Shown one piece after another: positions 57,157-62,716 of a DNA stretch of 64,000 nucleotides. The first letter of the stretch is position 1. Each line of letters begins with the position of its first letter. Location: positions 992,001-1,056,000 of the forward strand of contig NZ_JACCFH010000001.1 of NCBI RefSeq assembly GCF_013410775.1, read 5' to 3'. The DNA comes from Sphaerotilus montanus. GTDB lineage: Bacteria; Pseudomonadota; Gammaproteobacteria; Burkholderiales; Burkholderiaceae_C. Position numbers and translations under genes: made by a program. Under the pieces are notes generated by a model. The model was not told where the DNA came from and made no database searches. It saw only the letters and a list, made by a program, of their open reading frames with translations.

Positions 57157-58734
57157 ATGAATCAAGACATGCCCCAGCCCTCCGCCACCACCCCGGCGCC
57201 GGTGCCCGCCACCGAGGCGGCCCTGCGCATCCACCCGGCCGATGACGTGGCCATTGCCCGGCGCCAGATGCTGTCGGGCACCCGGCTCGACACGCTCGGC
57301 GTCGTCGTGCGCGGGATGGTGCCGCCCGGCCACAAGGTGGCACTGCGCGACCTGCCGGCTGGCGCGCCAGTGCGGCGCTACAACCAGGTGATCGGCCACC
57401 TCAGCGCGCCGGTGGCGGCCGGTGCGCATGTCCACACCCACAACCTGCGCTACGCCGAGTTCACCCGTGACCACGAGGTGGGCATCGACGCCCGGCCGAC
57501 CCGGTTCGTCGAGGAGCCGGCCACCTTCCAGGGCATCGTCCGGGCCGATGGCCGGGTGGCGACGCGCAACTACATCGGCGTGCTGACCTCGGTGAACTGC
57601 TCGGCCACGGCAGCCCGCGCCATTGCCGACCACTTCCGCCGCGACATCCATCCCGAAGCGCTGGCCGACTACCCGAACATCGACGGCGTGGTGGCGCTGA
57701 CCCACGGCACCGGCTGCGCCACCGATGGCGACGGCGAACCGCTGAAGGTGCTGCGCCGCACGCTGGGCGGGTATGCGCGGCACCCGAACTTCGCCGCCGT
57801 GCTGATCGTCGGGCTGGGCTGCGAGACGAACCAGATCCAGGGCCTGGTCGCCCAGGAGGCGCTGCAGGAAGGCACCCGGCTGGTGACCTTCAGCATCCAG
57901 GACTCGGGCGGCACGGCACGGACCGTGGCACGCGGCGTCGCCGCCATCCAGGCGCTGCTCGGTCCGGCCAACGCGGTCCGGCGCGAACCCGTGCCGGCCC
58001 GCCACCTGACGGTCGGGCTGCAGTGCGGCGGCTCCGACGGCTATTCCGGCATCAGCGCCAATCCGGCGCTCGGTGCCGCCGTGGACCGGCTGGTGGCACA
58101 CGGCGGCACCGCCATCCTCTCCGAGACGCCCGAGATCTACGGCGGCGAGCACCTGCTGCTGCGCCGGGCCGTCTCGACCCAGGTGGCCGACAAGCTGCTC
58201 GCCCGCATCCGCTGGTGGGAGGACTACACCGCCCGCAACGGCATGAAGATGGACAACAACCCCTCGGCCGGCAACAAGGCCGGCGGGCTGACCACCATCC
58301 TGGAAAAGTCGCTCGGCGCCATCGCCAAGAGCGGGACTTCGGCGCTCGTGGACGTGTTCGAGTACGCCGAGCCCGTCCACGCTCGGGGCCTGGTCTACAT
58401 GGACACCCCCGGCTACGACCCGGTGTCCGCGACCGGCCAGGTCGCGGGCGGCGCGAACCTGATCTGCTTCACCACCGGGCGCGGATCGGCCTACGGCTGC
58501 GCACCGGCGCCCTCGCTCAAACTCTCGACCAACACCGCGCTGTGGCTGCGCCAGCAGGAGGACATCGACCTGGACTGCGGCCCGATCGTCGAAGGGCTGG
58601 CCACCATCGACGCGGTGGGCGAGCGCATCTTCCGGCAGATGCTGGCCACCGCGTCGGGCGAGCGCACCGCCAGCGAGCGCCACGGCTACGGCCAGAACGA
58701 ATTCGTGCCGTGGTCGCTGGGGGCGGTGATGTGA
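57157..58734 (+). CDS. UxaA-family (altronate/galactarate-type) dehydratase
   Basis: A 525-residue sugar-acid dehydratase. The N-terminal SAF-like domain covers about residues 20-100 (LRIHPADDVAIARRQM). The main domain shows TRNYIGVLTSVNCSATA, ALTHGTGCATDGDGEPLK, IVGLGCETNQIQG, LQCGGSDGYSGISANPALG and LSETPEIYGGEHLL, all typical of altronate and galactarate dehydratases. It is a single gene beside its IclR regulator, with no transporter or aldolase nearby. The start may instead be the ATG at 57169. Confidence 0.88.
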   Translation: MNQDMPQPSATTPAPVPATEAALRIHPADDVAIARRQMLSGTRLDTLGVVVRGMVPPGHKVALRDLPAGAPVRRYNQVIGHLSAPVAAGAHVHTHNLRYAEFTRDHEVGIDARPTRFVEEPATFQGIVRADGRVATRNYIGVLTSVNCSATAARAIADHFRRDIHPEALADYPNIDGVVALTHGTGCATDGDGEPLKVLRRTLGGYARHPNFAAVLIVGLGCETNQIQGLVAQEALQEGTRLVTFSIQDSGGTARTVARGVAAIQALLGPANAVRREPVPARHLTVGLQCGGSDGYSGISANPALGAAVDRLVAHGGTAILSETPEIYGGEHLLLRRAVSTQVADKLLARIRWWEDYTARNGMKMDNNPSAGNKAGGLTTILEKSLGAIAKSGTSALVDVFEYAEPVHARGLVYMDTPGYDPVSATGQVAGGANLICFTTGRGSAYGCAPAPSLKLSTNTALWLRQQEDIDLDCGPIVEGLATIDAVGERIFRQMLATASGERTASERHGYGQNEFVPWSLGAVM

Positions 58735-58757: not shown

Positions 58758-58784
58758 TCAAGTGCGACCGACCAGGGCCGATAA
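58758..58784 (+). promoter_or_regulatory. Sigma-28 (FliA) type flagellar promoter
   Basis: TCAA (58758-58761), 15 bp, then GCCGATAA (58777-58784). This matches the FliA pattern TAAA-N15-GCCGATAA at 11 of 12 positions, with exact spacing. It lies 56 bp before the PYP-like start and is the best match to that pattern that I noticed in the window. Confidence 0.8.
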
Positions 58785-58840
58785 CGGGAATTGGTCGGAG
58801 TCGCGTGGTAGATGGCTCCGGCACCTCGACGGAGCCCTCC

Positions 58841-59239
58841 ATGCCGCCACTGGTCACTCTCGACTTCACGCAGGACGCCCTGCTGGATGCCCTGCTGCCG
58901 CTGGACCGTGAAGGCCTGGATGCCCTGGGGTTCGGCGTCATCGGCTTCGATGTGGACACCATCGTGCGGGACTACAACGCCGTCGAGTCCCGCATGGCCG
59001 GGCTGTCGCGCGACAAGGTGATCGGCCTGCCGCTGTTCACGGCGGTCGCGATCTGCATGAACAACTTCATGGTGGCCCATCGGTTCGAGGAAGCCGCCGA
59101 GAACGGCCTGCCACTGGACGCCACCATCGACTACGTGCTGACCCTGCGCATGCGTCCCCAGCGCGTGCAGTTGCGCCTGCTGGCGCGGCCGGGGGAAGCC
59201 CGCCGGTTCGTTCTGATCCAGCGCAAGACCGGCGTCTGA
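58841..59239 (+). CDS. PYP-like single-domain PAS protein
   Basis: A 132-residue PAS protein resembling photoactive yellow protein of Halorhodospira (125 residues) along its whole length. The chromophore-pocket residues Tyr42, Glu46 and Cys69 of that protein correspond to Tyr45 and Glu49 (DYNAVES) and Cys72 (AICMNNF), all offset by three. The usual Thr50 and Arg52 are Ala53 and Leu55, and the Pro before Cys is Ile71. The ATG at 58841 has a GGAG site 6 nt upstream; a GTG at 58805 is less likely. It precedes a diguanylate cyclase by 5 bp. Light sensing is inference: the p-coumarate synthesis genes are not in the window. Confidence 0.8.
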   Translation: MPPLVTLDFTQDALLDALLPLDREGLDALGFGVIGFDVDTIVRDYNAVESRMAGLSRDKVIGLPLFTAVAICMNNFMVAHRFEEAAENGLPLDATIDYVLTLRMRPQRVQLRLLARPGEARRFVLIQRKTGV

Positions 59240-59244
59240 CGCCC

Positions 59245-60576
59245 ATGGACGCCCGGGAAGCCCTGCAGCAGCTGGAGCGGGAGCACCAGGCGCTGCTGCA
59301 GTTCGTGTACCTGGCGCCGGTCGGGCTGGTGCAGGTCCGCAGCGATGGCGAGATCGTGATGGTCAACCCGACGGCAGCGCAACTGCTGATGCCCCTGTCG
59401 CGCGACGGCACGCTGGACAACCTGTTCACGGCCTTGCGGGAGGTCGCACCCGACCTGCAGGATCTGCTGGACACCGGCACGCCCGCCAGTGGCGTGGTCT
59501 GCGACGGGCGGCAGTTGCCGGTGCAGATCGGCCAGGGCACCAGATCCGAGGCGCGTCTGCTGTCGTTCAGCCTGATCAGGATTGACACGGAACACTGCAT
59601 GGTCCTGCTGCAGGACGTGACCGAGCAGGTCCGCCGCGAACACCGGCTGCGGCAGCAGGAAGCCTGGCTCGGCGCCATCCTCTCCGGCGTGACGGACTAC
59701 GCCCTGGTCACGCTGGACCCCGGCGGGGGCGTCGTCGAGTGGAACGACAGCATCCAGCGCATCAGCGGCTTCAGCCCCGAGGCCGTGCACGGTCAGACCC
59801 TGGCGCTGTTCTACCCGCCCGACAGCATCACGCCCGAGCGCGTGCTGGACCATCTTCGCGAAGCCGACCAGAGCGGCTGCAGCCTGGATGAAGGCTGGCG
59901 CGCACGCGCCGACGGCACCCGCTACTGGGGCAGCATGCTGATCACGCCGCTGCGACCGGCCGGCGGCGGGCGCACGGCCGATGCCGCCTACTGCCTGATC
60001 CTGCGCGACCTGAGCGACCACCGCGACACGGCCGTCGAGGTCCGGCAGGCAGCGGTCTGCGACTACCTCACCGGGATCCACAACCGCCGCGCCTTCTTCG
60101 AAGCCGCAGAGCGCGAGACCCGGCGCGTGAAGCAGCGCCCCCGGCCGCTGTCGGTGGTGCTGTTCGACGCCGACCACTTCAAGCGCATCAACGACTCCCT
60201 GGGCCACCCGGCCGGTGACGCGGTGCTGTGCCACATCGCCAGCACGCTGCGCGCCTCGTTCCGCGAGGTGGACGTGGTCGCCCGCATCGGCGGCGAGGAA
60301 TTTGCGGTGCTGCTGCCGTCGACCGATCTCCAGGGCGCCCACACCGTGGCCGAGCGTTTCTGCCGCAAGCTGGCGGCGTCCCCGGCCAGCACGGCCGCGG
60401 GCGAGGTGGTCTGCACGGTCAGCGCCGGCATCGCGACCATGGCCGACTGCGGCGGTGACCTGAACACGCTGATGCAGCGGGCGGACCAGGCGCTCTATGC
60501 CGCCAAGGCGGCGGGGCGCAACCGGGTGTGCGGACTGGCACCGGAACTGCCAGACGAATCGCTTGCAAGTCCTTGA
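59245..60576 (+). CDS. PAS-PAS-GGDEF diguanylate cyclase
   Basis: Makes cyclic di-GMP from two GTP. It has 443 residues and no membrane segment. The first PAS domain covers about 15-125 (PVGLVQVRSDGEIVMVNPTA), and the second about 140-260 (GVVEWNDSIQRISGFSPEAV). The GGDEF domain is at about 270-430: DYLTGIHNRRAFFE, FDADHFKRINDSLGH, and the active-site GGEEF at 349-353. An RxxD inhibitory site (340-343) lies five residues before it, so product feedback is expected. It is coupled to the PYP-like gene under the sigma-28 promoter. Confidence 0.93.
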   Translation: MDAREALQQLEREHQALLQFVYLAPVGLVQVRSDGEIVMVNPTAAQLLMPLSRDGTLDNLFTALREVAPDLQDLLDTGTPASGVVCDGRQLPVQIGQGTRSEARLLSFSLIRIDTEHCMVLLQDVTEQVRREHRLRQQEAWLGAILSGVTDYALVTLDPGGGVVEWNDSIQRISGFSPEAVHGQTLALFYPPDSITPERVLDHLREADQSGCSLDEGWRARADGTRYWGSMLITPLRPAGGGRTADAAYCLILRDLSDHRDTAVEVRQAAVCDYLTGIHNRRAFFEAAERETRRVKQRPRPLSVVLFDADHFKRINDSLGHPAGDAVLCHIASTLRASFREVDVVARIGGEEFAVLLPSTDLQGAHTVAERFCRKLAASPASTAAGEVVCTVSAGIATMADCGGDLNTLMQRADQALYAAKAAGRNRVCGLAPELPDESLASP

Positions 60577-60582
60577 TTGGAT

Positions 60583-60631
60583 TGGTAGGCCGCCCGTGAG
60601 TCGAACACGGCACCAACAGATTATGAGTCTG
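60583..60631 (-). other. tRNA 3' fragment (CAT anticodon), integration site
   Basis: On the minus strand these 49 bases read as the 3' part of a tRNA: anticodon stem-loop with CAT (60625-60623), variable region, T-arm CCGTG-TTCGACT-CACGG, acceptor strand and CCA (60585-60583). The bases that should form the D-arm and 5' acceptor strand (above 60631) do not fit. A tyrosine integrase follows at 60778, so this is the attachment-site copy left by island integration into a Met- or Ile2-type tRNA gene. Confidence 0.85.
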
Positions 60632-60748
60632 CAGGCCATAGCAAAACCCAGCCCCGAAGATACCCGCCAGCCATACCGCAGACCATGTGAATCAATGACT
60701 TGCAAACGTTCTCGCGTTGAGTGGCGTTTATCCGTGTGCAAGAATGGT

Positions 60749-60770
60749 GCTTACATAGGCGCTTACATGG
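60749..60770 (+). repeat. Direct repeats before the integrase gene
   Basis: GCTTACATAG (60749-60758) and GCTTACATGG (60761-60770) are 12 bp apart, just before the integrase ATG. They look like arm-type integrase binding sites or an autoregulatory site. Confidence 0.5.
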
Positions 60771-60777
60771 ACTCAGG

Positions 60778-62091
60778 ATGGCTCGAATCAGACTCACTGC
60801 CGGCCGCATTGCATCGGCTACATGCCCGGACGGGAAAGCTCAGGCATTCGTCTGGGATGACGCCGCGCCCGGTCTGGCGCTGAGGGTGACTGCTGCCGGG
60901 GATAAGGCGTTCATCTTCCAATCACGGCTGAATGGCGCGGTACTGCGGATGACCATAGGCAAGCCGGAAGCGTGGAGCATCCCCGAAGCTCGCACCGAGG
61001 CCCGCCGATTACAGACGCTGGTGGACAAGGGCGCCGACCCGCGAGCCGCGAAGGCCGCCACCATCGCCACCGACACCGCCGACCGTGCGGAAGCCAAGGT
61101 AGAACGCCAGCGCCAGCAAGTCACGGGGCTTGAGGCGTGGGGCACCTACTGCACCGCCCGCGCTTCGCACTGGAGCGAACGCCACGCCCGAAACCATGCC
61201 GTGATGGTGCAAGCCGGTGGAGAGCCGCGCACCCGTGCCAAGGTCAAGACCCTGCAAGCCGGCATCCTGCGCCCCCTGCTGGCCCGTCCGCTGGCGCTGA
61301 TTGACGCCGACACCATCGCCGCATGGATGACCGCCGAAGCCCCTGCACGCCCTGCTGTGGCCGCGCTGGCGTTCAGGCAGTTGGCCGCGTTCCTGCGCTG
61401 GTGCGGGGAGCATCCCGAGTTCGGCGCCATCGCCCAGGCAGAAGCCCACAAGCCGCGCCGCGTGCGGGAGCTGGTCCCGGAGGTGGGCACAAAGGACGAT
61501 TGCCTACAGCGCGAACAGCTCCCCCTGTGGTTCGAGGCCGTGCGCAGGCTGTCGAACCCGGTGCCGGCTGCGTTCCTGCAAACCGCCCTACTGACTGGCG
61601 CACGCCGCGAAGAGCTGGCCGGGTTGCGCTGGGATGACGTGGATTTCCGCTGGGGTTCCCTGAGCATCCGCGACAAGGTGGAAGGCATCCGCACAATCCC
61701 GCTAACGCCCCTCGTTTCGCAATTGCTGGCCGCCCTGCCCCGTCGCAATCAATGGGTTTTCAGTAGTCCGACCGCTGCCGATGGCCGCATTCAAGACCCC
61801 CGAGAGGCGCACGAACGCGCCCTATCTGCTGCGGGTTTGCCACACCTGACGATTCATGGCCTGCGCCGTTCGTTCGGCACGCTGTGCGAGTGGGTCGAGA
61901 TGCCTGCCGGTGTCGTAGCGCAGATTCAGGGGCACAAGCCGAGCGCCACGGCAGAGAAGCACTACCGCCGCCGCCCGCTGGACCTGCTGCGCATGTGGCA
62001 CACCCGCGCCGAGGCGTGGATGCTGGAACAGGCCGGCATCGAGCAACCCAGCGCCAGCGAGGAACCCGCCCGCCTGCGCGCTGTGCAGTAA
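60778..62091 (+). CDS. Tyrosine-type site-specific integrase
   Basis: Phage-type integrase of 437 residues. The N-terminal arm-binding DUF4102-like domain spans about 1-90 (LTAGRIASATCPDGK, LALRVTAAGDKAFIFQSRL). A core-binding domain follows, then the catalytic domain with Arg in TGARREELAGLRWDDVD, His-x2-Arg in HGLRRSFGTL, His in QGHKPSA and the likely nucleophile Tyr in EKHYRRRP. The ATG at 60778 follows directly repeated sequences. It would integrate at the tRNA fragment at 60583. Confidence 0.93.
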   Translation: MARIRLTAGRIASATCPDGKAQAFVWDDAAPGLALRVTAAGDKAFIFQSRLNGAVLRMTIGKPEAWSIPEARTEARRLQTLVDKGADPRAAKAATIATDTADRAEAKVERQRQQVTGLEAWGTYCTARASHWSERHARNHAVMVQAGGEPRTRAKVKTLQAGILRPLLARPLALIDADTIAAWMTAEAPARPAVAALAFRQLAAFLRWCGEHPEFGAIAQAEAHKPRRVRELVPEVGTKDDCLQREQLPLWFEAVRRLSNPVPAAFLQTALLTGARREELAGLRWDDVDFRWGSLSIRDKVEGIRTIPLTPLVSQLLAALPRRNQWVFSSPTAADGRIQDPREAHERALSAAGLPHLTIHGLRRSFGTLCEWVEMPAGVVAQIQGHKPSATAEKHYRRRPLDLLRMWHTRAEAWMLEQAGIEQPSASEEPARLRAVQ

Positions 62092-62117: not shown

Positions 62118-62435
62118 ATGTGGACTGTTGCACTTCACCCCGAAGCGGAGCCCGAGTTGCTGGCGCTGCCTGACGACATGCGCGCCCGCTTCCTGCGCAT
62201 TGCCGACATGCTGCAGGAGTTCGGCCCGCATCAAGTCGGGTTGCCCCACGTTCGCCCGCTGGAAGGCAAGCTGTGGGAGATGCGGATGCAGGGGCGTGAC
62301 GGCATCGCCCGCGCCGTGTACGTGGCAATGCATGGCCGGCGCCTGCTGGTGTTGCATGTGTTCGTCAAGAAGACCCAGACCACACCCCGCAAGGCACTGG
62401 ACGCCGCCCGCAAACGACTGGAGAACGCCCCATGA
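62118..62435 (+). CDS. HigB-like toxin (phage-derived Gp49-like, RelE superfamily)
   Basis: A 105-residue basic protein. LPDDMRARFLRIADMLQEFG, VRPLEGKLWEMRMQGRDGIAR and VLHVFVKKTQTTPRKALDAAR are typical of Gp49/HigB mRNA interferases. It is followed by an XRE antitoxin with a 4-bp overlap, in toxin-first order as in higBA. A CATAAT box lies at 62106-62111, so the leader may be very short. Confidence 0.9.
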   Translation: MWTVALHPEAEPELLALPDDMRARFLRIADMLQEFGPHQVGLPHVRPLEGKLWEMRMQGRDGIARAVYVAMHGRRLLVLHVFVKKTQTTPRKALDAARKRLENAP

Positions 62436-62716
62436 AGACCCTGAACGACATCAAGGCCGAACTGCTGGCCGACCCTGCAACCCGTGCAGCCTATGACGCA
62501 CTGGCGCCCGAGTTCGAGACGGCCCGCGAACTGGTGGCCGCCCGTGCCCGCGCTGGCTTGACGCAACAGCAGGTAGCCGAACGCATGGGCACGACGCAAA
62601 GCACGATTGCCCGCATGGAAAGCGGCAGGCGCCCGCCGTCCCTGCGCACGGTGCAGCGGTACGCCCAGGCGCTTGGGTGCCGGGCTGTGGTGCGCATCGA
62701 GCGCGCGCCCGCCTGA
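62432..62716 (+). CDS. HigA-like antitoxin, XRE family
   Basis: A 94-residue DNA-binding antitoxin. The helix-turn-helix lies at about 36-75 (RARAGLTQQQVAERMGTTQSTIARMESGR in part). The N-terminal MKTLNDIKAELLADPATRAAYD is the usual lead-in of this family. It is coupled to the toxin gene by an ATGA overlap and would repress the shared promoter. Confidence 0.92.
   Translation: MKTLNDIKAELLADPATRAAYDALAPEFETARELVAARARAGLTQQQVAERMGTTQSTIARMESGRRPPSLRTVQRYAQALGCRAVVRIERAPA

Follow-up and report, generated by a model that had tools for sequence, protein, structure and literature searches.

The closest described relatives of the locus presented here belong to the photoactive yellow protein (PYP) clade C of Xing, Gumerov and Zhulin (2022), a group centred on Burkholderiales whose genes frequently adjoin GGDEF genes and which features no characterised member; its signature is the loss of Phe92, Phe96 and Trp119 together with the retention of Met100 (PMC9664959). 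The pairing of a stand-alone PYP with a GGDEF protein, taken for a distinct arrangement in the first-pass annotation of this DNA, had thus already been published in 2022 (PMC9664959), and 29 pyp operons with a GGDEF gene downstream were listed by Dohmen et al. in 2025 (PMC12826048). The single-domain PYP of Idiomarina loihiensis lowers biofilm in blue light, with the adjacent GGDEF protein as the proposed target (PMC9664959, PMC12826048). Besides, bifA of Pseudomonas putida was described as a gene for a c-di-GMP enzyme partly under FliA control (PMC5300878). A term search of the text of the 2022 study found no promoter or FliA link (PMC9664959), and the main text of the 2025 study discusses neither FliA nor promoters nor clade C (PMC12826048). 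Likewise, the literature search yielded no paper treating PYP and FliA together and none on Leptothrix swarmer cells.

The window, i.e., the whole stretch of DNA analysed here, comprises 64,000 nucleotides of the Sphaerotilus montanus genome, and positions refer to it. Downstream of a galactarate-dehydratase-like gene with its stop at 58734, a gap of 106 bp leads to the start of a pyp gene, whose own stop is separated by 5 bp from a diguanylate cyclase gene (Table 1).

Table 1. Features of the pyp-cyclase locus in window coordinates, with the basis of each assignment.
Feature	Position	Strand	Basis or remark
Predicted FliA (sigma-28) promoter, TCAA-N15-GCCGATAA	58758..58784	+	Full site TCAAGTGCGACCGACCAGGGCCGATAA, inside the 106-bp gap
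Likely ribosome-binding site, GGAG	58831..58834	+	6 nt 5' of the ATG, read from the sequence
Clade-C PYP-family PAS protein, 132 aa	58841..59239	+	TIGR02373, phmmer, fold, tree
Span of the pocket triad Tyr45, Glu49, Cys72 (PYP 42/46/69)	58973..59056	+	Alignment to PYP
Predicted diguanylate cyclase, PAS-PAS-GGDEF, 443 aa	59245..60576	+	Domain matches and orthologues downstream of pyp
Cyclase PAS1, approx. residues 24-124	59314..59616	+	Domain match; high conservation among orthologues
Cyclase PAS2, approx. residues 152-258	59698..60018	+	Domain match
Cyclase GGDEF domain, approx. residues 270-430	60052..60534	+	PF00990, E 2e-47
Cyclase inhibitory site RxxD (REVD), residues 340-343	60262..60273	+	Motif in alignment
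Cyclase active-site motif GGEEF, residues 349-353	60289..60303	+	Motif in alignment

The best reading of this locus is a light (or ligand) sensor which tunes c-di-GMP in flagellated cells. In its specific form, which is considered somewhat probable, a p-coumaroyl-bearing clade-C PYP from a FliA-controlled operon would set the activity of the PAS-PAS-GGDEF cyclase in swimming cells. FliA would transcribe both genes as one operon, and the PYP would act as a single-domain blue-light receptor, with p-coumaroyl probably bound to Cys72 in this strain, and would most likely set cyclase activity by direct contact via the conserved N-terminal PAS domain. Since the operon would be switched on with the late flagellar genes, the light response would occur in swimming cells, and the altered level of c-di-GMP would tip the choice between swimming and settling one way or the other. 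The observations underlying this reading are the homology to PYP, the fold of the predicted model, the structure of an operon that is conserved among relatives, the motifs of the cyclase and a conserved FliA-type site; PYP family and fold, the kept triad, the recurrent cyclase, the enrichment of sites, the motif at cheY, the presence of FliA, the ligase-linked loci and the precedent of I. loihiensis were counted in its favour, and the absence of a characterised clade-C PYP was counted against it.

The 132-residue protein had been noted for retaining the Tyr, Glu and Cys residues of PYP at matching spacing, and its relationship to PYP was borne out by profile search and structural comparison. 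TIGR02373 (photo_yellow) is its sole NCBIfam match (62.3 bits, E 4.5e-17), though the score misses the curated equivalog cut-off of 143 bits; this is a narrow model which detects about 20% of PYP homologues (PMC9664959). Generic Pfam PAS models all stayed under their own cut-offs, and PDB sequence matches with E < 1e-4 (phmmer) were exclusively PYPs or PYP-derived tags. The nearest solved structures to the AlphaFold model (pLDDT 88.6, built from 56 sequences) are those of PYPs (2phy with Z 19.8, 125 residues aligned at an rmsd of 1.8 A), compared with Z 12.5 for the best non-PYP PAS chain. Because the profile match, the PDB matches and the fold nearest to 2phy all lead to PYP, the protein is, judged by sequence and model, a member of the PYP family (PAS_PYP, sensu Xing 2022). 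It carries Ile, Leu, Phe and Met at PYP positions 92, 96, 119 and 100, i.e., the clade-C signature, and groups in the tree with the Burkholderiales clade, apart from canonical PYPs; on these sequence features it is placed in clade C.

In the sequence alignment, Tyr45, Glu49 and Cys72 correspond to PYP Tyr42, Glu46 and Cys69, which are present in 24/24 aligned family members from the profile search, a set free of bias from Cys patterns. The invariance of Cys69 in the 80 loci of the contig scan is partly built in, as one of the two search patterns includes Cys. Further pocket residues kept besides the triad are Ile31, Val66 and Ala67 (PYP numbering), the changes being Phe62 to Leu, Phe96 to Leu and Pro68 to Ile, and Ile at position 68 is unique to this copy among 98 clade-C sequences. 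Within the 301 genomes of the GTDB family, the profile search gave TIGR02373 matches of any strength in 53, canonical PYPs above the cut-off in four and clade-C proteins with roughly 50-87 bits in about two dozen. The contig scan retained 80 of 267 relatives, mostly from Massilia and also from Duganella, Sphaerotilus, Rubrivivax, Paucibacter, Variovorax and Rhodoferax. In addition, three loci (L048 in G247, L063 and L066 in G184) form a separate divergent PYP-like group which keeps Cys69 and differs at positions 94-100, with one member featuring Phe at position 42.

The first-pass annotation had read the loss of Thr50 and Arg52 as a sign that the pocket may bind another ligand or work without light. 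This doubt carries no weight, because Ala50 and Leu52, the residues found here, represent the PYP family consensus (Dohmen et al., 2025; PMC12826048), and PYPs carrying Ala50 are photoactive (PMC12826048). Better grounds for doubt, which it missed, are provided by the missing ammonia-lyase and PYP-type ligase and by the change of Pro68 to Ile. The genome search for chromophore enzymes, part of the earlier proposal, did not recover the pathway: profile searches found no PF00221 aromatic ammonia-lyase in this genome or in three genomes of the same genus, and no TIGR02372 PYP-type 4-coumarate-CoA ligase above the cut-off in this genome (best 104.9 vs 334.7 bits).

These absences, counted against a p-coumaroyl photoreceptor, favour the alternative that the protein, although descended from clade-C PYPs, controls the cyclase in this strain as an apo-protein or with Cys72 binding a different thioester or a redox ligand. 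The unique exchange at position 68 points in the same direction, as does the fact that FliA-type sites and ligase neighbours almost exclude each other: among 64 scored loci with the cyclase, a single one features both, 14 the site only, 26 the ligase only and 23 neither (Fisher p 0.002, with relatedness of the loci ignored). Nevertheless, Tyr42, Glu46, Cys69 and Met100 are kept throughout, ligase-linked relatives included. Moreover, the aryl-CoA candidates of the genome, a benzoate-CoA ligase and two PRK12582-family acyl-CoA synthetases below cut-off, might load imported p-coumarate, a source of chromophore also suggested for other hosts (PMC12826048), and the majority of published pyp operons lack TAL as well (PMC12826048). 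Loading of this PYP from imported p-coumarate is possible, and the alternative without p-coumarate is regarded as doubtful, although it is the strongest of those considered.

The ligase-linked relatives deserve attention in this regard. In 26 clade-C loci without a FliA-type site, nearly all from Oxalobacteraceae, a PYP-type coumarate-CoA ligase gene is located upstream, in most cases at a distance of about 300 bp and in divergent orientation; no canonical PYP is in view in 24 of these loci. Four clade-C-linked ligases (three from these 26 loci and that of Methyloversatilis L119) reached 303-320 bits for TIGR02372, with the cut-off at 334.7 and other families far below; in 27 whole genomes, ligases above the cut-off were confined to the four with a canonical PYP. 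In Methyloversatilis (L119:3231-7698), an ammonia-lyase gene is followed in a row by those for coumarate-CoA ligase, clade-C PYP and cyclase, and a FliA-type site separates the PYP gene from the ligase gene; this cluster is a good experimental model. The clade-C operon of Burkholderiales bacterium PBB1 (G104, L098) has a canonical set of lyase, PYP and ligase genes about 4.4 kb away. The ligase-linked loci, the Methyloversatilis cluster and the PBB1 set together argue for p-coumarate being carried throughout clade C. That the loci divide into a FliA-linked and a ligase-linked group is new relative to the literature found and offers a natural comparison for the question whether all clade-C PYPs are photoreceptors. 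A further reading, considered unlikely, is that the FliA-controlled branch has lost its dedicated chromophore genes and would read an environmental signal, e.g., a plant-derived hydroxycinnamate thioester on Cys72, as ligand or scavenged chromophore, and would set c-di-GMP only in swimming cells.

With regard to control of the operon, the genome encodes FliA (279 bits), and the near-perfect FliA promoter motif claimed at the outset was upheld. In pattern searches of the 5.07-Mb genome, which is in three contigs, the exact motif TMAA-N15-GCCGATAA occurred four times vs 0 for the reversed control; as a one-mismatch pattern gave 56 matches vs 30 for its control, only near-exact sites are informative. 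Among the other exact sites, one lies before cheY and likewise begins with TCAAGT; a weaker form is found before motA. A scan of the 200 nt preceding each of 98 clade-C genes, with the upstreams of 1581 other ORFs from the same loci as control, revealed FliA-type sites with a score of at least 18 in 20/98 vs 13/1581 and of at least 19 in 14/98 vs 7/1581; shuffles predict 0.9 and 0.15, respectively, and the reverse strand of the 98 upstreams gave none (0/98). The sites of relatives are mostly positioned at -59 to -114 from the pyp start, and most of the strong ones at -59 to -94. Strong sites are spread over about seven tree lineages, although the grouping of loci in a tree with few resolved forks means that not all of them are independent. 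FliA was present in 26/27 genomes examined vs 235/301 (78%) of the family; the sole genome of the 27 without it, G036, holds no clade-C protein, and all clade-C genomes checked have FliA.

The predicted FliA link of the operon is thus well supported by sequence, and the frequent position of clade-C pyp operons behind a FliA-type site appears to be new. That the motif is fortuitous or minor here, with a sigma-70 promoter driving the operon outside the flagellar regulon, seems rather improbable. Such control would agree with the 51/69 cyclase-bearing loci below score 18, since the operon can work without the site where most loci lack it, and with some exact sites of this genome preceding genes without an obvious flagellar role, which also counts against the preferred reading. 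Still, the enrichment holds over shuffles, the reverse strand, random windows and the upstreams of other genes, the distance from site to start codon is similar in most strong cases, and the sites occur in several separate tree lineages. Apart from clade C, a canonical PYP gene (L057, G251:C165) features TAAA-N15-GCCGATAA 153 nt upstream, so such sites may extend beyond this clade. Another exact FliA-type site (G000:C1:226122-226148; L002, L160) lies between two divergent genes; the product of one seems to be transmembrane, and that of the other resembles a methyl-accepting protein.

The second gene encodes, as had been stated, a soluble PAS-PAS-GGDEF protein with intact active and inhibitory sites: GGEEF and the metal and GTP residues D308, D310, N316 and D317 are present, as is the I-site REVD, so that it is predicted from sequence to be an active diguanylate cyclase. 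An orthologous cyclase gene was found immediately 3' of pyp in 69/98 clade-C loci, the spacing between the two genes being -4 to +30 nt in most cases. The orthologues show 45-58% identity (34 aligned); GG(D/E)EF and the catalytic residues are kept, and RxxD nearly always is. Their PAS1 domain is unusually conserved and is therefore the best candidate for contact with the PYP. That one and the same cyclase partner recurs downstream of clade-C pyp is new relative to the literature found. What single-domain PYPs partner with has long been asked, and this cyclase, encoded in a compact operon with pyp in dozens of genomes, is a direct candidate; the FliA promoter points to the cells in which to look for its action. 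A shared promoter with separate signals, in which the PYP would act on another partner such as chemotaxis (phototaxis) and the cyclase would answer its own PAS domains, would fit the motility context, the negative phototaxis mediated by the Halorhodospira PYP and the existence of MCP-PYP fusions (PMC12826048), but is distinctly improbable given that, across Burkholderiales, the operon is tight and the cyclase the same, and that a second homologous PAS-GGDEF gene comes next in 50/67 clade-C loci with enough sequence.

This second cyclase gene is absent at the present locus. Its loss to an integrative element was considered and rejected, as the tRNA end lies 6 bp 3' of the cyclase stop and the element therefore did not cut the operon there. 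The element itself, of about 8 kb, extends from a 50-bp repeat of the tRNA-Met 3' end just past the cyclase stop (60583-60632) to the intact tRNA-Met 8 kb further on, ending at G000:C1:1060666 beyond the window, with a tyrosine recombinase gene (60721-62091) in between. It also contains two small genes (62118-62716), likely a toxin-antitoxin pair: the first resembles HigB/RelE on visual inspection and gave no NCBIfam match, and the second encodes a HipB/RstR-like HTH protein. Elsewhere, the second contig contains an open frame of 7,059 residues (G000:C2:126455-144667) which comprises six AMP-binding domains and probably encodes a large non-ribosomal peptide synthetase.

Compared with known systems, bifA of P. 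putida shares the connection of a c-di-GMP enzyme to FliA, but is a phosphodiesterase gene without a PYP-type sensor. Ppd of Thermochromatium tepidum (PYP-phytochrome-GGDEF/EAL) likewise ties a PYP domain to c-di-GMP, as one fused protein with phytochrome, whereas two proteins and no phytochrome are found here. The PYP of I. loihiensis resembles the present one as a single-domain protein beside a GGDEF protein, but belongs to clade A, and the accessible part of the source reports no FliA-type promoter for it. The operons of Dohmen et al. (PMC12826048) feature the same order, pyp followed by a GGDEF gene. Closest are the clade-C proteins (PMC9664959): whereas this member differs by Ile at position 68 and a genome without PYP-type chromophore-loading genes, it shares with them the protein clade, the single-domain build beside GGDEF genes and the retention of the triad and Met100 with loss of Phe92, Phe96 and Trp119.
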